From positions 1 to 42,270 of the forward strand of contig JAUNNN010000016.1 of NCBI GenBank assembly GCA_030531435.1: a stretch of DNA of 42,270 bases. Reading direction: 5' to 3'. Of this stretch, positions 13,733 to 21,494 are shown piece after piece. The position numbers were made by a program, and so were the translations under genes. Numbering within the stretch: position 1 is the stretch's first letter; every line of letters starts with the position of its first letter. The notes beneath the pieces were generated by a model, which was given only the letters and a program-made list of their open reading frames with translations, was not told the DNA's origin and ran no database searches. The DNA comes from Lachnospiraceae bacterium (lineage in GTDB: Bacteria > Bacillota > Clostridia > Lachnospirales > Lachnospiraceae).

Positions 13733-15043
13733 TTAATATTCACATTTTACAAACATGGCTGAATATGGTTCAAGATATGTACCACCACCAAAGTCAATTT
13801 CCTTACCAGAAATAAGGTCAACTCCTCTTCCGCATCCTGCATCATAATGGGCTGTATATCCCTCTCCATCCATATTTATACAAACAAAAACTCTCTCTTC
13901 AGCAGTCTTTCTTTCAAAGATACACTGTTTGTTTGTAAGAACAACAGATCTCATACCGCCATAATTAAGTGCATTACTATTCTTCTTTGCCTCTGAAAGC
14001 TTAGCTATAAAGTCACAAAGAGAATTCCATTCAGGAGCATCATAGCTTAATCTCAAGGCTGGGTCACCCTGACTCTTATCACCTTTTGCTCCCCATTCAC
14101 TGCCGTAGTATACAATTGGAATACCTGGCATTCCAAATACCATTGCATAGACTAGTGGTAAATGGTTTTCATTCTGAAGAATACTTGCAATTCTTGATAC
14201 ATCGTGGTTATCGCAAAAGCTCAAAAGGTGTCTGTCTCTTGCAACAGTCCAGTCTTCTGGTCCAAATAATCTTAAGAGTGAATGAATAATCTCAAACATA
14301 TTATAGCTATTGAATGCGCTATGAATTCCTTTATAGCACTGATAGTTTGTAACAGAATGAATATTCATTTCATTAAGCATTCTGCCATATTCGCCATGAA
14401 GTACCTCACCCACTAAGAAAAAGTCTGATTTTTTAGAATCAGTAAAATCTCTAAGCCTTCTGAGGAAACCATAATCGAGGCAATATGCTACATCAAGTCT
14501 TATTCCATCAATATCAAACTCATTAATCCAGCCTTCCACTGCATGGAAGATATGCTGAACTACATCTTCATTGTGAAGATTAAGCTTTACAAGGTCGTAA
14601 TTACCCTCCCAGCCTTCATACCAAAGGCCATCATTATAGTTTGAATTGCCATCAAAATTAATATTAAACCAGTCTTTATAAGGACTATCCCATCTCTTTT
14701 CAAGCACATCCTTAAATGCGAAAAATCCTCTTCCAACATGGTTAAATACACCATCCACTATGACCTTAATTCCTTCTTTATGGAGGTTATCAACAACCTG
14801 CTTAAAATCTTCGTTTGTACCAAGTCTTACATCGATTTTTGTATAGTCTCTTGTGTTATATCCATGAGTATCAGATTCAAATATTGGTGAGAAATATATT
14901 GCATTGACTCCTAATTTCTTGATATGAGGAATCCAGTCATTAACCTTTAAAATTCTGTGTTCCAAAACCCCATCATTTTCAAAAGGAGCTCCACAAAATC
15001 CTAAAGGATAAATCTGATAAAATACACTTTCATAAGCCCACAT
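13733..15043 (-). CDS. Alpha-amylase family protein (GH13), cytoplasmic
   Basis: A 436-residue GH13 TIM-barrel enzyme acting on alpha-glucans or maltodextrins, without a signal peptide. Conserved regions are in order: VDGVFNHVG (region I, about 96-104), GIRLDVAYCLD with nucleophile D184, VGEVLHG with acid/base E213, and SFCDNHDVSR with D278 stabilising the transition state. A small C-terminal beta domain follows at about 360-436. The N-terminal FYQIYPLGFCGAP resembles cyclomaltodextrinase/neopullulanase-like enzymes, but it lacks their extra N-terminal domain, so exact specificity is open. It lies 21 bases after nfo, making it the odd third member of a DNA-repair transcript. Confidence 0.9.
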   Translation of the reverse strand: MWAYESVFYQIYPLGFCGAPFENDGVLEHRILKVNDWIPHIKKLGVNAIYFSPIFESDTHGYNTRDYTKIDVRLGTNEDFKQVVDNLHKEGIKVIVDGVFNHVGRGFFAFKDVLEKRWDSPYKDWFNINFDGNSNYNDGLWYEGWEGNYDLVKLNLHNEDVVQHIFHAVEGWINEFDIDGIRLDVAYCLDYGFLRRLRDFTDSKKSDFFLVGEVLHGEYGRMLNEMNIHSVTNYQCYKGIHSAFNSYNMFEIIHSLLRLFGPEDWTVARDRHLLSFCDNHDVSRIASILQNENHLPLVYAMVFGMPGIPIVYYGSEWGAKGDKSQGDPALRLSYDAPEWNSLCDFIAKLSEAKKNSNALNYGGMRSVVLTNKQCIFERKTAEERVFVCINMDGEGYTAHYDAGCGRGVDLISGKEIDFGGGTYLEPYSAMFVKCEY

Positions 15044-15064: not shown

Positions 15065-15922
15065 TTACTGTAATAAACGTGCTATTTCTTCCTTGTATGG
15101 TGGAAGCTTAACCTTTGGATTAGCTGGATCTTCTATGTATGGTGTCTCTAATATTTTCATAACACCTTCAAAATCCTTATGATGAACTATGTAATGTAGT
15201 GCCTCAAAGCCAATAGTTCCATCCCCAAGATTAGCATGTCTATCCTTATGAGCACCTAGCTCATTTTTACTATCATTAATGTGAAAACAAACTATCTGAT
15301 CTTTTCCAATTAGTCTGTCAAATTCACCTATAACGCCATCAAAATCATTCTTAATATCGTATCCTGCGTCATTTGTATGGCATGTATCAAAACATACACG
15401 AAGTTTATCGTTATATTTTACCCCGTCGTATATTCTTGCCAGTTCTTCAAAAGTACGACCAACTTCAGAGCCTTTTCCCGCCATTGTTTCAAGAGCAACC
15501 ATACATTCAGTATCTTTTGTTAAAACTTCATTAAGTCCTTTGACAATTGACTCTATTCCGGCGTCTACTCCAGCATCCACATGGGAACCAGGATGTAACA
15601 CCATTGCATTTGCATGCATTGCTGTACTTCTTTCAAGCTCTGTAGCAAGGAAATCAACTGCGAGATTATATGTTTCTTTTTTGACAGTATTTGCAAGATT
15701 AATAATATATGGCGCATGGATAATTATTTCATCAATACCATTTGCTCTCATATAATCCCATCCTGCTTCAATATTCAATTCTGAAATGTCTCTTCTTTTA
15801 GTGTTTTGTGGAGCTCCAGTATAGACCATAAAACAGTTAGCTCCATAGGAAGCTGCTTCCTTTGCTGATGCAAGAAACATCTCTTTTCCGCTCATTCCAA
15901 CATGAGATCCAAGTTTTATCAT
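15065..15922 (-). CDS. nfo: Endonuclease IV (AP endonuclease)
   Basis: Zinc-dependent enzyme that cuts 5' to abasic sites and cleans blocked 3' ends in base-excision repair. Seen are the N-terminal [22 protein letters not shown] with a metal-binding glutamate, [14 protein letters not shown] with Asp/His ligands, and [22 protein letters not shown]-type blocks carrying further ligands: the full set for the trinuclear zinc site. The chosen ATG gives MIKLGSHVG (285 residues), because GAGAGG lies about 9 bases before it; an in-frame ATG nine bases earlier has no room for a ribosome site. It lies 23 bases after the SOS-boxed helicase gene, so it is probably induced with it. Confidence 0.95.
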
Positions 15923-15945
15923 AAAATTCATCCTCTCTTAGGCAA

Positions 15946-18408
15946 TTATACTGTCCCTAAAGGTAATTTATCAACTCCGTGTTTTATCCAAAAATCTTCT
16001 ATTTCTTTTCCAATATTTTTCAAAGAAACCTCTTTATACCCGCTCCACTCTCTTGGGAAAAGTCTCCTGTTATATCCCTGCAGAAATCGTTCATCAAGCA
16101 GAACTATTACACCTTTATCCTCTTCTGTCCTTATAACTCTTCCAGCTGCCTGAAGCACTTTATTCATACCAGGAAATCTATAGGCATAATCAAAACCATT
16201 TGCATCGTCCTCGTCATATTTATTTTTAAGTATATCTCTTTCAGGATTAACCATTGGAAGCCCCGTTCCCACAATAATTGTGCCAATAAGGCTGTCTCCC
16301 CTTAAATCAATCCCTTCGCTGAATATTCCACCCATTACGCAGAAACCAACAACATTTTTATTTGACTCAAAATTTGATAAAAACTCTTCTCGGTCAGCTT
16401 CACTCATGTGAGAATTCTGTACAAGACACTTAATACTGTCATCCATAAAAAAGTCTTCATAAACACTATATACATTTCCAAGAAATGAATATGACGGGAA
16501 AAATACCAAGTAATTACCCTGCATTTTTTTAACTACTGTGTTAATGTATGATGCAATATTGTAATACTCCGTTTCATTACGTCTTGTGTACTTACTCGAT
16601 ACATCTGATGCTACAAAGATACCTCTGTTTGCTGGATCAAACACTGAATGGGCATATACTGCAGTGTCTTCAGAATCTGCAAGCATATCCTTAAAATACT
16701 GTATAGGCAGTAATGTAGCAGAGAAAAATGTAGTACTAATTCCTTTATCAAGACAAGTTCTTATACTTCTTGATGGATTAGTGCATAAAAGCTTAAGCAT
16801 AAAATCGCCATCATCATCTATTCTGTCATAAATAAGATAGTCCTCATCTGTCATATTTTCATACATGTTTAAGAAGTGTCTTACTTCAAAATACAAATCA
16901 AGAACATCTTCTCTGTCAGGACATTTCTCATCTTCATCAAGGAATCTCTCAAGCTGACCATTACACTTAATAAGAGCAATTACAAAGCTTGAAATCTCAT
17001 CAAGAACATTACACGATTCACATTCCTTTTTCAGAATAAGTAACTGTTTATTACATGCATCAAGCGCCTTTTCAAGTCTCTTATCATAAGGTTTAACTTT
17101 TCTTTTAGTTTCAAGAAATGTCTCTTTCTTTAGTACAGCGCTATACATTTCCATTGCCCTGTCAACAAGGTTATGTGCCTCATCAACAAGAAATGTATAA
17201 TCAGATGAATTACCCTCTGCAAAAAAACGTCTCAAATAAACATTCGGATCAAAGACATAATTATAATCGCATATTATACTGTCCGAAAAAAGGGACATAT
17301 CTAATCCCATTTCAAAAGGACATACCTCGTACTTTTTTGCATACTCTTCTATTGTCTCTCTTGAAAAAGAATCCTCATTAATCAGCAAATCATAAATTGC
17401 ATCATTCACTCTGTCAAAATGACCTTTTGCGTATGGACATGCATCAGGATTACAGTCAGATTTATCAAGAAAACATACCTTATCTCTTGCTGTAATAATT
17501 ACTGTTTTCATCCTAAGATTCATATCTCTTAAATGATTAAAGCATTCAAGTGCTGCCGTTCTTGTAATTGTTTTTGCAGTAAGATAAAAAATCTTTGAAG
17601 TCCTGCCTTCTCCCATTGCTCTAACAGCAGGATATATTGTCGAAACAGTCTTTCCTGTTCCTGTTGGTGCCTCAATAAATAATCTCTTATTATTTATTAT
17701 GTTTTTATAAACAGAAGCAACAAGCTCCTTCTGGCCTTCTCTATACTCAAAAGGGAATGAAAGAGTGTTTATAGACTGATTTCTAATATCTCTCCACTCT
17801 ATTTCAAACTCTGCCCATTTTCTGTATTCATTTGTAATGTGTAAAAACCAATCTGATATTTCTTTAAATGTGTAGTTTTCGTGGAAATGCTTCACATCAA
17901 GCGTTTCAACATTACAGTATGTCATTCTCACTGAAATAGCATCCGTAACAACTTCAGGTCCATATGGACGTATGGCATCCACCTGATCTTCTATAAAGTT
18001 TTCAGGATTAAGAAGTGTGGCTAGAACGATATATGCATAACATTTTGCCTGAGCAAGATGCACTGGATCTGGCTCCTTTAGATGGTCAAGATCTTTATGA
18101 GTGCTCTTTATTTCATCAATAATAACGGGATTTCCTTCAATGATTCCATCTGCTCTTCCCTCTATCATAAGGTCAAACTTTTCAAACGTAACCTTCGTTT
18201 TAAGAAAAACTTCAGGGTGGTAAGAAGTCCCCATTCTTTTCTGGATCATTCTGTGGATTCTTGCACCCTCCTGCATAGTCTCCACATCAGAAGCTTTGCT
18301 CTTTCTTCTATTGTCGATATCGCCACTACGAAGTATAAATTCAACAAGATTCCTAACAGAAACCCTGACTACTGGGCGAAATTCCATATTATTAATCATT
18401 TCACTCAT
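15946..18408 (-). CDS. XPD/DinG-type DNA helicase fused to an N-terminal RecB/Cas4-like nuclease domain
   Basis: An 820-residue SF2 5'-3' helicase of the XPD/DinG kind. Residues 1-200 look like a PD-(D/E)XK nuclease: H52, D87 in GRADGI, D98-E99-K101 in IIDEIKS, and Q120 with the following tyrosine (QAKCYAY), the pattern of RecB/Cas4 nucleases. Helicase motifs are Walker A EAPTGTGKT (246-254), DEAH (409-412), FFSATLLP and AAGRVIRTEED. Four cysteines (312, 319, 324, 363) match the XPD iron-sulfur cluster. The start giving MSEMINN was preferred over an ATG 45 bases earlier that falls inside the LexA-box region. A LexA-type box lies just before it, and nfo and the amylase gene follow. Role inferred: processing of branched or damaged DNA. 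Confidence 0.9.
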   Translation of the reverse strand: MSEMINNMEFRPVVRVSVRNLVEFILRSGDIDNRRKSKASDVETMQEGARIHRMIQKRMGTSYHPEVFLKTKVTFEKFDLMIEGRADGIIEGNPVIIDEIKSTHKDLDHLKEPDPVHLAQAKCYAYIVLATLLNPENFIEDQVDAIRPYGPEVVTDAISVRMTYCNVETLDVKHFHENYTFKEISDWFLHITNEYRKWAEFEIEWRDIRNQSINTLSFPFEYREGQKELVASVYKNIINNKRLFIEAPTGTGKTVSTIYPAVRAMGEGRTSKIFYLTAKTITRTAALECFNHLRDMNLRMKTVIITARDKVCFLDKSDCNPDACPYAKGHFDRVNDAIYDLLINEDSFSRETIEEYAKKYEVCPFEMGLDMSLFSDSIICDYNYVFDPNVYLRRFFAEGNSSDYTFLVDEAHNLVDRAMEMYSAVLKKETFLETKRKVKPYDKRLEKALDACNKQLLILKKECESCNVLDEISSFVIALIKCNGQLERFLDEDEKCPDREDVLDLYFEVRHFLNMYENMTDEDYLIYDRIDDDGDFMLKLLCTNPSRSIRTCLDKGISTTFFSATLLPIQYFKDMLADSEDTAVYAHSVFDPANRGIFVASDVSSKYTRRNETEYYNIASYINTVVKKMQGNYLVFFPSYSFLGNVYSVYEDFFMDDSIKCLVQNSHMSEADREEFLSNFESNKNVVGFCVMGGIFSEGIDLRGDSLIGTIIVGTGLPMVNPERDILKNKYDEDDANGFDYAYRFPGMNKVLQAAGRVIRTEEDKGVIVLLDERFLQGYNRRLFPREWSGYKEVSLKNIGKEIEDFWIKHGVDKLPLGTV

Positions 18409-18416
18409 AATTATCC

Positions 18417-18430
18417 CGTACAAATGTTCG
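18417..18430. promoter_or_regulatory. LexA (SOS) box 1, helicase side
   Basis: Minus strand CGAACATTTGTACG against the Gram-positive LexA consensus CGAAC-N4-GTTCG: one mismatch. It covers the likely transcription start of the helicase gene, 9 bases before its ATG. Confidence 0.75.
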
Positions 18431-18438
18431 ATTTTATA

Positions 18439-18467
18439 TTGAATAACGAACATTTGTTTGCTATACT
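18439..18467 (+). promoter_or_regulatory. SOS-type promoter of the radical SAM gene
   Basis: TTGAAT (18439-18444), 17-base spacer, TATACT (18462-18467). LexA box 2 fills the spacer, so LexA binding would exclude polymerase. The start of transcription would be near 18474, giving a leader of about 50 bases. Confidence 0.75.
18447..18460. promoter_or_regulatory. LexA (SOS) box 2, radical SAM side
   Basis: CGAACATTTGTTTG, one mismatch from CGAAC-N4-GTTCG. Its centre is exactly 30 bp from that of box 1 and the two boxes face in opposite directions (their CGAACATTTGT halves are inverted). This places two LexA dimers about three helical turns apart over a divergent promoter. Confidence 0.78.
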
Positions 18468-18522
18468 ATAACACATATCAAACAAAATTTGAATACATTT
18501 TATACAATATGGAGTTTTATTT

Positions 18523-19893
18523 ATGGAATTAAGACTTACCGAAGAAATGTCCATTATGGATAAATTACATATACTTACTGACGCAGCTAAATACGACGTT
18601 GCATGTACATCAAGCGGTTCATCAAGACAGGGCGATGGCACAGGTATAGGAAACGCTGTCTCATGTGGACTTTGTCACAGCTTTGCCGCTGATGGAAGAT
18701 GTATTTCTTTGTTAAAAATACTATTTACTAATGAGTGCATTTATGACTGTAAATACTGCATTAACAGGAAATCAAATGATGTAAAAAGGGCCAGCTTTAC
18801 CCCTTCTGAAATATGCGATCTGACCATTGAATTCTACAGAAGAAATCTTATTGAAGGATTATTTCTTAGTTCAGGAATACTAAAAAGTCCTGACTATACA
18901 ATGGAGCTTATTTATCAAGCAATCTATAAGCTCAGGTATGAATATGGTTTTCAGGGATATATTCATGTGAAAGCAATTCCAGGAGCATCATCTGATTTAA
19001 TTCATAAGCTTGGATTAATCGTAGACAGAATGAGTATAAATCTTGAGCTTCCAACAGCTGACGGCTTAAAAGAGCTTTGTCCCAATAAGACAAGAACTAC
19101 AATACTAAAGCCAATGCGAATGATTCAAAACGGAATTACACAGAGTAAAAACGAGCTTACTCTATATAGACATGCCCCAAAGTTTGTCCCAGCAGGTCAG
19201 AGTACACAAATGGTTATAGGTGCTACAGGAGAATCTGACTATGAAATTATTAACGTAGCATCTTCTCTTTACAATAACTTTAATCTAAAAAGAGTTTTCT
19301 ATTCTGCCTTTGTTAATGTTAATAATGACGCCTCTCTTCCAGGAGCTATTCCTGATGGATATGATTTACCTGCTATCGCTGAAAATGTTAAGCCACCACT
19401 ACTTAGAGAGCACAGATTATATCAGGCCGATTTTTTGATGCGATTCTACCAGTTTGAAGCATCAGAGCTTCTTAGTGAAGATAAGCCAAACTTTAATACA
19501 CTATTTGATCCAAAAGCAGACTGGGCTTTAAAGCATCTTGAATTCTTCCCTATGGAAATCAATAAGGTGAGCTACCATGAGCTCCTTAGAATTCCTGGGG
19601 TTGGAGTTAATTCTGCAAAGCGAATAATTAAGGCAAGACGACTAGCTCCATTGACCTTTTCCGACCTAAAAAAGATTGGTGTTGTATTAAAACGAGCCCT
19701 TTATTTTATCACCTGCAATGGTAAAATGATGTTCCCAACAAAAATTGATGAGGATTACATTGCTAGGAATCTATTGAATGTTTCGGAACGACTTCCAGAA
19801 GGAATTACTGCTTCAGGCAATACCTACAAGCAAATGTCACTTTTTGACTATGATGAGTTTAATAGAATGAATAGCCAGATTATTACCGCATAG
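18523..19893 (+). CDS. Putative DNA modification/repair radical SAM protein (TIGR03916-like)
   Basis: A 456-residue radical SAM enzyme of a family often found next to, or functionally linked with, a uracil-DNA-glycosylase-like protein; its reaction is unknown. The cluster motif is CIYDCKYC (C72, C76, C79). Additional cysteines precede it at 48, 51 and 60 (CGLC and GRC), possibly a second metal or cluster site. A helix-hairpin-helix motif LLRIPGVGVNSAKRII (354-369) near the C-terminus suggests DNA binding. AAKYDVACTSSGSSR is the family's N-terminal signature. GGAG lies 8 bases before the ATG. It is transcribed from the LexA-boxed promoter, with its partner gene 54 bases downstream. A repair role is inference from regulation, HhH motif and family linkage. 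Confidence 0.88.
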   Translation: MELRLTEEMSIMDKLHILTDAAKYDVACTSSGSSRQGDGTGIGNAVSCGLCHSFAADGRCISLLKILFTNECIYDCKYCINRKSNDVKRASFTPSEICDLTIEFYRRNLIEGLFLSSGILKSPDYTMELIYQAIYKLRYEYGFQGYIHVKAIPGASSDLIHKLGLIVDRMSINLELPTADGLKELCPNKTRTTILKPMRMIQNGITQSKNELTLYRHAPKFVPAGQSTQMVIGATGESDYEIINVASSLYNNFNLKRVFYSAFVNVNNDASLPGAIPDGYDLPAIAENVKPPLLREHRLYQADFLMRFYQFEASELLSEDKPNFNTLFDPKADWALKHLEFFPMEINKVSYHELLRIPGVGVNSAKRIIKARRLAPLTFSDLKKIGVVLKRALYFITCNGKMMFPTKIDEDYIARNLLNVSERLPEGITASGNTYKQMSLFDYDEFNRMNSQIITA

Positions 19894-19947: not shown

Positions 19948-20730
19948 ATGGATAAAAAAGTATTTATATGTGAAGACTCGATTGAAGGAATTTTCACTTC
20001 TGTATATGATGCATACTCAGCTGTATTAAGACACGAAATGGAACATACAGATGTTGAAATCATTACCGGAGATATTGAAAACTACAGCATGTTCTGTGAT
20101 TATATTGAGGTTCCTTCTTCAAAAGAAAAATCATTAAAAGTATCTAAATCGATATGTGAAAAAATGGGATATAGAACATATGAGTCTATATTCTACGCAG
20201 CTACCTGTGATGATAAGGACAAGGCAACTGATATTTATATGACAATTGTTAAAGCTTTTCGTTTAAATGATAGCTATAAAATAATGGATTTATGGACTGA
20301 CAAAAATGTCCTTCATATTTTAGAGCTTTATAGAAAAGCTAAAAATGAATTTGGTAGATGGAGAGAATTTTTACAGTTTAGAGAATTGGAAAACGGAATA
20401 CTATACTCTCGTATTGGGCCAGAGTGTGATATTCTGCCACTCCTTGCTCCACACTTTGAAAACAGACTCCCAAATGAAGATTTCATGATTCATGACGATA
20501 TAAGGGATTATTTTCTTGTGCATGAAAAAGGTCGAAAAAGCGTCATTGTATCTGGAGAGGCCTTAGGAGATAACCGTGAAATGCTTAATAAGTTCTCTGA
20601 TAATGACATTCAGATATGTGCTTTATTTAAAGAATTCACTAAAACCATTGCTATTAAAGAGAGAACAAACCTAAAGCTTCAGCAGCAGCTTATGCCTCTT
20701 AGAATCCAGAATTACAAGATAGAATTTTAA
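19948..20730 (+). CDS. DUF4130/TIGR03915 family putative DNA metabolism protein
   Basis: A 260-residue protein that looks like the obligate partner of the preceding radical SAM family. In other bacteria the two genes occur together, and some versions of this partner are fused to a uracil-DNA-glycosylase-like domain; no such fusion is here. Visible family features are FICEDSIEGIFTSVYDAY at the N-terminus, KNEFGRWREFLQFRELENGI and SRIGPECDILPLLAPHFENR in the middle, and FKEFTKTIAIKERTNLKLQ near the C-terminus. No catalytic motif can be named. GGAG lies about 8 bases before the ATG. It is the last gene of the rightward transcript and is followed by a hairpin shared with the convergent cobalamin operon. 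Confidence 0.85.
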   Translation: MDKKVFICEDSIEGIFTSVYDAYSAVLRHEMEHTDVEIITGDIENYSMFCDYIEVPSSKEKSLKVSKSICEKMGYRTYESIFYAATCDDKDKATDIYMTIVKAFRLNDSYKIMDLWTDKNVLHILELYRKAKNEFGRWREFLQFRELENGILYSRIGPECDILPLLAPHFENRLPNEDFMIHDDIRDYFLVHEKGRKSVIVSGEALGDNREMLNKFSDNDIQICALFKEFTKTIAIKERTNLKLQQQLMPLRIQNYKIEF

Positions 20731-20756: not shown

Positions 20757-20786
20757 TATGGGCGTCTATAAAAATAGACGCCCATA
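20757..20786. terminator. Shared hairpin between convergent transcripts
   Basis: Perfect 13-bp stem built on ATGGGCGTCTAT / ATAGACGCCCAT with an AAAA loop, centred between the stops of the DUF4130-type gene (plus) and cbiL (minus). Flanks are only moderately T-rich on either strand (ATCTTTATA rightward, AATATATTAAAA leftward). It probably works in both directions. Confidence 0.75.
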
Positions 20787-20789
20787 TCT

Positions 20790-21494
20790 TTATACATCCT
20801 TTACAATTATAACCGTCATATATCCTTGTAGTTTACATAACTCATCGTATCCATGAGCTACTATTTCCTTATCTGTCCCTAGATTTGAAACACCATAAGC
20901 AGCTGCATGCGGATTAGTTTTGCAATAATCCACTATTTTTTCGGTAAAATCAGAAAGGCTTCCCTTTGGTTTCATAAATACTTTTGTACCATTCAAAGAC
21001 AGCTTTTCATTTAAGTTTTCTGCATCAGGGAACACGTGAACTTCCTCATCACCCTGTGCAATTGACATTGAAAAAGTCCTTACCGTTTCCTGTATGGAAG
21101 ATACACCACTTATAAGCTCACAAGTATATCCATCCCTAACAAGTCTTTCATGAACATACATAAATGTAGAATATAAAGCCACCGCACCAAGAGCCGGAAA
21201 GGCAACTGAATATCCATCATCAAGATATTCTTCCACACATTTTGAAAGCCTGTCGTATCTTTCTCCTGCCATAGATGGATTTGTCATTTTTGACCCCATA
21301 TCACACACTATGTTTTTCTCATCAATTTCAGGAAATGCGCCTTTAATTATCTGATATACTCTGCAGTCTTCCTTTGGTGCATTTGGAAGAAATATATAGT
21401 CAGCATTTTTTATTGTATTAAATGCTTTTATTGTAATAAGCTCTGGGGCTCCTGGACCAACAGATACTCCGTAGCAAATACCTTTTTTACTCAT
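20790..21494 (-). CDS. cbiL: Precorrin-2/cobalt-factor II C20-methyltransferase
   Basis: SAM-dependent methyltransferase adding the C20 methyl group at the start of corrin ring building. The tetrapyrrole methylase fold is seen: GVSVGPGAPELITIKA at the N-terminus, ALGAVALYSTFMYVHERL in the second block (where relatives carry a GDP-x-x-YST pattern) and ELISGVSSIQ. Length 234 is typical. It overlaps cbiA by 8 bases and is the last gene of the cobalamin operon. The anaerobic, cobalt-early route implied by cbiD, cbiG and cbiK suggests cobalt-factor II as substrate; CobI-type use of precorrin-2 is the alternative. Confidence 0.93.
   Translation of the reverse strand: MSKKGICYGVSVGPGAPELITIKAFNTIKNADYIFLPNAPKEDCRVYQIIKGAFPEIDEKNIVCDMGSKMTNPSMAGERYDRLSKCVEEYLDDGYSVAFPALGAVALYSTFMYVHERLVRDGYTCELISGVSSIQETVRTFSMSIAQGDEEVHVFPDAENLNEKLSLNGTKVFMKPKGSLSDFTEKIVDYCKTNPHAAAYGVSNLGTDKEIVAHGYDELCKLQGYMTVIIVKDV

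Follow-up and report, generated by a model that had tools for sequence, protein, structure and literature searches.

The window, i.e., the whole stretch of 42,270 nucleotides analysed here, is contig C72 in the genome of a Lachnospiraceae bacterium. The element in question lies between two divergent transcription units: to the right, a gene for a radical SAM (S-adenosylmethionine) protein followed by that for its DUF4130 partner, and to the left, a gene for a DinG/XPD-type helicase. Two LexA-type boxes occupy the short region between them, which, as far as can be judged from the sequence, is in all likelihood a LexA-repressed promoter of a two-gene repair operon, with the helicase probably held by the same boxes. 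The features of the rightward side are the following:

18417..18430, LexA box 1, CGTACAAATGTTCG; its centre is 38 bp 5' of the start of the rightward -10 hexamer, and it lies 8 bases from the assigned start codon of the helicase
18447..18460, LexA box 2, CGAACATTTGTTTG; occupies the spacer of the rightward promoter (slot -8)
18439..18467, plus strand, rightward promoter: -35 TTGAAT, 17 bp, -10 TATACT with a TG extension, 9/12 consensus positions
18523..19893, plus strand, radical SAM protein of family TIGR03916 (rSAM_link_UDG), 664 bits against a cut-off of 343.5
19948..20730, plus strand, TIGR03915/DUF4130 protein, the radical SAM partner, 186.8 bits against a cut-off of 112.25
20757..20786, plus strand, terminator-like hairpin of 13 pairs with a T-rich tail, 3' of the two-gene operon

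An earlier note on this DNA had described two near-consensus boxes, inverted and 30 bp apart, and both a pattern scan and a matrix trained on lexA promoters confirm the description. Each box differs from CGAAC-N4-GTTCG at one position, the two are mutually inverted, and no other match with up to one mismatch occurs in the window, where 0.12 would be expected and where none of 100 shuffles reached two. The matrix (16 positions, from 74 boxes in 25 lexA upstream regions of other genera) excludes all radical SAM promoters; three of the 28 lexA loci, L073, L082 and L092, were left out at contig ends. At a score of at least 12 it finds in the window these two sites only, with scores of 18.5 and 14.8, respectively. 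The note had also placed one box in the spacer of a rightward promoter, which is indeed where box 2 lies. Read as its reverse complement, box 2 is identical to one recA box of the same genome, and the T mismatch of box 1 recurs in a box of a congener (L209/L211), whose rightward promoter, TTGACG-17-TATATT, stands at the equivalent position.

Does the host itself use boxes of this kind? Its genome, scanned as 2.19 Mb in 95 contigs, has a single lexA match (C18:6266-6862), with LexA DNA-binding and S24 peptidase domains. Three of the 11 sites found genome-wide with up to one mismatch lie 125-199 bp 5' of the matched lexA start. The host recA gene (577 bits, cut-off 325) has two boxes, again 30 bp apart and again with one in the spacer between -35 and -10. 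These boxes at the host lexA and recA, where the earlier note had suggested looking, point strongly to the window boxes being LexA boxes of the host's own type. The note had suggested the uvr genes as well; uvrB was examined, and the 1500 bp upstream of it contain no matrix site scoring at least 8. Next to lexA, the divergent neighbour (L012:2649-3240, C18) encodes a 128-residue protein with apparently one membrane segment and no Pfam match, and the promoter region that the two genes share, upstream of lexA, holds six matrix sites scoring at least 11. The position of this neighbour presumably resembles that in the lexA-yneA pair of Bacillus.

Further evidence comes from relatives, for which all boxes were counted at a matrix score of 12. 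Of the first 26, every one has a box no more than 250 bp from where the radical SAM gene starts, and 22 have at least two; the density of sites is 7.7/kb upstream against 0.048/kb in the rest of the loci. Three further loci (L025, L036 and L049) were omitted from this count, contig ends having shifted the start, and their genomes belong to the larger set that follows. In that set of 80 relatives from the same family, one per genus, a box is found within 300 bp of the radical SAM gene in 80/80, and at least two in 61/80. The protein occurs in 89 of 150 family genomes, that of the host included, and 80 of the 88 relatives were examined (omitted were G021, G025, G031, G047, G063, G088, G100 and G142, either as fragmentary or as not fetched). 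A collection of 80 named loci, partly from the same organisms, has a box in 76 and at least two in 62.

The pattern extends beyond the family. Elsewhere in the class, 86 loci from 34 other families were scored: 77 carry a box and 15 at least two, while a coding control for this test yielded 2 sites in 139,323 bp. At the threshold applied, 101 of the 245 class genomes have TIGR03916; 87 of 103 match rows were taken and 86 counted, G208 being dropped for too little upstream sequence. Omitted were the row of the host itself, two rows from its family, one for an additional copy in G388, and the final 12 rows, of which four are above the family cut-off. Taken together, LexA control of the rightward pair is well supported by sequence comparison, and the pair very probably belongs to the standard DNA-damage response of related bacteria. 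A second group of family members has longer radical SAM proteins (L173-L203; about 468-544 residues) that align with the window protein as two segments, with the break near residues 210-220, and this group retains LexA boxes.

The position of the boxes relative to the promoter also follows a pattern in the family. A promoter could be recognized in 74 of the 80 family loci, and there 112 of 137 boxes fall into three slots; counted from where the -10 hexamer begins, these are centred at about -38, -8 and +19. Boxes placed at random would occupy them about 18 times. The two commonest combinations both include +19, with -38 in 20 loci and with -8 in 18. Neighbouring boxes in relatives are mostly 23-38 or 47-63 bp apart; helical phasing was considered as the cause of these spacings and set aside, the promoter slots being the better explanation. 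The simple reading of the slots is that LexA bound there would block RNA polymerase sterically.

A number of results nevertheless weigh against LexA control, and they are best taken together with the possibility that the boxes are chance palindromes, served by another regulator or by none. Genome-wide, the pattern with up to one mismatch occurs at 11 sites against 49 for a reversed control, a looser form at 9 against 8, and the core alone at 494 against 929. The number of boxes in the genome was thus rejected as evidence, so that the weight rests on their position and conservation. The training sites of the matrix were initially chosen with a CGAAC-N4-GTTCG seed, allowing up to two mismatches. 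Four of the 80 named loci (L222, L253, L255 and L257) stay below the threshold, as do 9 of the 86 class loci, which come from five families: four of five loci in f33, two of two in f51, and one each in f68, f7 and f24. The slot pair of the window, -38 with -8, is rare (3 of 74 loci), and the slots themselves are far less apparent in loci from other families, where they account for 24 of 82 boxes. The region holds 33 promoter-like matches, no excess over shuffles (32.2), and within the genus the gene pair occurs only sporadically (2 of 37 genomes, and 2 of 17 of the more complete ones). Even so, chance is a highly improbable explanation of boxes that recur at the same gene in 80/80 family relatives and 77/86 class loci, found by a matrix blind to those promoters.

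A few sites elsewhere in the host genome can be mentioned here. Two on contig C33 (9734 and 9780) sit in a hairpin beside a tRNA-like stretch, as read by eye, and are probably not operators. Contig C59 has a LexA box (L013:4165-4178) in the spacer of a TTGAAT-17-TATTAT promoter, also read by eye, ahead of a 28-codon open reading frame for a small hydrophobic peptide; this could be an SOS-induced membrane peptide, and the contig also carries a tyrosine-recombinase-like gene.

As for the two proteins of the operon, the radical SAM protein has the motif CX3CX2C (C72, C76 and C79), which together with C28, C51, C60 and C398 is invariant in 46/46 aligned sequences; the additional cysteines may serve a second iron-sulphur cluster. 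A helix-hairpin-helix match falls below the Pfam cut-off. In the DUF4130 protein, E134, H169, R173, D183, H192, R239 and E259, among others, are kept in 58/58 sequences. Among solved structures, the radical SAM profile found two weak local matches only and the DUF4130 profile none. We know of no substrate for the TIGR03916/DUF4130 pair. In PMC3765255, DUF4130 is predicted to be an enzyme related to mutagenesis and is linked with SplB-like radical SAM proteins and with uracil glycosylases. Our guess would be that the radical SAM protein probably alters a damaged or odd base and that DUF4130 helps in its processing. The hairpin that closes the operon is one of 5 terminator-like hairpins found, against 3.1 expected in shuffles. 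Beyond it, from 20790 to 42101, there is a long series of mostly leftward open reading frames, the nearest of which (20790-21494) encodes a cobI/cbiL-like methyltransferase of the cobalamin pathway.

The leftward arm consists of a helicase gene and two candidate promoters:

15946..18408, minus strand, DinG/XPD-type helicase with a Cas4-like N-terminal region (probable EndoDinG architecture); start assigned by reading
18465..18493, minus strand, candidate leftward promoter TTCAAA-17-TATAGT, 9/12; the transcript start would lie in box 2
18433..18460, minus strand, alternative leftward promoter CAAACA-16-TATAAA, 8/12, weak; the transcript start would lie in box 1

The helicase frame is open up to 18453. 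Its helicase part gives DEAD_2, Helicase_C_2 and typeIV_DinG matches, and a solved relative, 9kqh (a DNA 5'-3' helicase), spans nearly the whole length; the nuclease part is suggested by a weak Cas4 match (residues 36-130, E 0.00044) and by motif residues read by eye. With 131 of 150 family genomes, the helicase is more widespread than the radical SAM protein (89 of 150). The stretches fetched for the 80 radical SAM loci place it 3' of the pair and on its strand in 33 cases; the distance from the DUF4130 gene is at most 750 bp in 29 of these loci and at most 118 bp in 10. In one of the 80 it is downstream on the opposite strand. Several relatives (e.g., L212:8302-8526) have a short HPr-like gene, just below the Pfam cut-off, between the DUF4130 and helicase genes.

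A divergent helicase is found in none of the 80 family relatives, for which 0.7-1.6 kb upstream were fetched. The layout of the window is shared with one congener (L211, which contains L209; genome G178), the sole such case in the 80 named loci. There the boxes, CGTACATTTGTTCG and AGAACGTATGTTTG, retain the 30-bp spacing, 39 positions of a 52-bp promoter block match the window, and helicase, nfo and amylase genes follow in the same order, with identities of 62, 80 and 84%, respectively.

How would such a region work? In the absence of damage, LexA dimers would sit on box 2, between -35 and -10, and on box 1, just 5' of the -35, and exclude RNA polymerase. Upon damage, as established SOS biology predicts, RecA filaments would bring about the self-cleavage of LexA, the boxes would be vacated and the pair would be made. 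In this small lineage, the EndoDinG gene, which many relatives have downstream of the pair, stands divergently, its assigned start codon beside box 1.

The helicase plausibly shares the LexA operators, and we think it rather likely that the same two LexA dimers would also repress its promoter. With its assigned start codon 8 bases from box 1, the leftward transcript must start in or cross the boxes and should be impeded by LexA bound there; the divergent layout is kept in the congener; and, the helicase being often downstream of the pair (33/80, 29 of them within 750 bp), the genes may long have been expressed together in the SOS response. An account to be taken seriously, even if it is not the one that we expect to hold, would place only the rightward operon under LexA, both boxes serving the radical SAM gene and the helicase promoter being independent of LexA. 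The 61 of 80 relatives with at least two boxes and the absence of a divergent helicase from all 80 indicate that two boxes need not mean two regulated arms, and the slots at -38 and -8 are used in relatives for the rightward promoter alone. The leftward arm also meets objections of its own: a promoter common to window and congener was sought there and none was found (the candidate at 18465-18493 is not kept), and inspection by eye gave no clear ribosome-binding site for the helicase. Moreover, the relatives' helicases are mostly boxless, with a box in the 300 bp upstream of the helicase in 0/34 loci near the pair (sequences that double as an intergenic-DNA control) and in 1/15 stand-alone loci. 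The latter figure is effectively 1/11, in that L103, L104 and L105 are genes already counted near the pair and the upstream sequence of L122 extends over just 72 bp.

The earlier note went further, and put the helicase, nfo, an amylase and the radical SAM pair under one DNA-damage switch. The two additional genes are these:

15065..15931, minus strand, deoxyribonuclease IV (nfo); adjacent, membership of the switch not supported
13733..15043, minus strand, alpha-amylase family protein; adjacent, membership not supported

The gaps of 14 bp (helicase to nfo) and 21 bp (nfo to amylase), the common strand and the order kept in L211 speak for co-induction of all of them, as does the amylase gene being on the helicase strand in 17/17 named loci with both. 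We nevertheless hold it unlikely. A promoter-like sequence matching at 11/12 positions lies directly 5' of nfo, although shuffles contain promoter-like matches just as often (32.2, with 33 found in the region); nfo runs opposite to the helicase in five of the six named loci with both, the sixth being the congener; and the matrix scan of the window gave no LexA box ahead of nfo or amylase. Read-through into the amylase gene is possible, and most likely both genes are bystanders or are reached by read-through only. What stands of the proposed switch is the rightward pair, supported by the boxes in relatives; the helicase is a plausible second arm, its layout kept in the congener without a conserved leftward promoter, and membership of nfo and amylase finds no support. 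The claim that the other box covers the leftward start depends on which of the two modest leftward promoter candidates is chosen.

To return to LexA control of the pair with a co-held helicase, a broader scheme can be imagined, which we regard as somewhat unlikely: across this class, the radical SAM protein, DUF4130 and EndoDinG would act in a single SOS-induced pathway that processes lesions, and the window's lineage would have rearranged the genes while leaving all three under the same operator pair. Radical chemistry on the base would be followed by processing by DUF4130 and then by unwinding and cutting by EndoDinG.

The near-universal boxes appear to tie a widespread gene pair firmly to the DNA-damage response, and this link offers a simple handle on the lesion that the pair handles. 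In the host genome, box searches give few clear targets, the pair being one of them together with lexA and recA, and uvrB has no box upstream.

SOS control of this radical SAM family has already been published for other bacteria. In Clostridium acetobutylicum, CAC3343-CAC3344 is a LexA operon predicted from footprinting and expression (PMC3828012); it is a single predicted case, and the passages dealing with it mention neither a divergent helicase nor operator slots. By our own reading, CAC3344 would be a DUF4130 protein. Another related system involves COG4277, which we take to be equivalent to TIGR03916. According to the relevant parts of PMC8565304, an operon of COG1573 and COG4277 (uracil-DNA glycosylase and radical SAM) belongs to SOS networks of Bacteroidetes, with Verrucomicrobia and Alphaproteobacteria also cited. 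Like the window operon, it couples a COG4277 protein to a partner in DNA repair and is governed by LexA-type regulation, but the LexA motifs are others and the partner is a uracil-DNA glycosylase instead of DUF4130. Excerpts of PMC7739468 place "a radical SAM protein" in the Gram-positive SOS core and in Balneolaeota, and the SOS regulon of Streptomyces venezuelae lists the radical SAM gene vnz_31145 in the portion of PMC9380542 consulted; these genes are likewise controlled by LexA, the radical SAM family is left unstated in those parts, and it may be SplB. In the C. difficile LexA study (PMC4234289), the term "radical SAM" is absent from the main text.

As for the helicase, the sections consulted of PMC11981726 define EndoDinG as a subgroup in which a nuclease of PD-(D/E)XK type precedes an FeS DinG-like helicase in one fused protein, which is probably also the architecture of the window protein; section 3.7 of that paper speaks neither of SOS control nor of a radical SAM neighbourhood. 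The same sections state that DinG and YoaA of Escherichia coli are controlled by LexA, and that ExoDinG of Staphylococcus aureus and Bacillus subtilis is not. For the class-wide box pattern, the operator slots and the EndoDinG association, no report was recognized in the open-access literature searched, which consisted mostly of listings and abstract openings. With the Gram-positive SOS core (lexA and recA), the window shares the type of box, the presence of several boxes per promoter, and a box in the spacer as at the host recA; it differs in its target, which is the radical SAM/DUF4130 repair pair.

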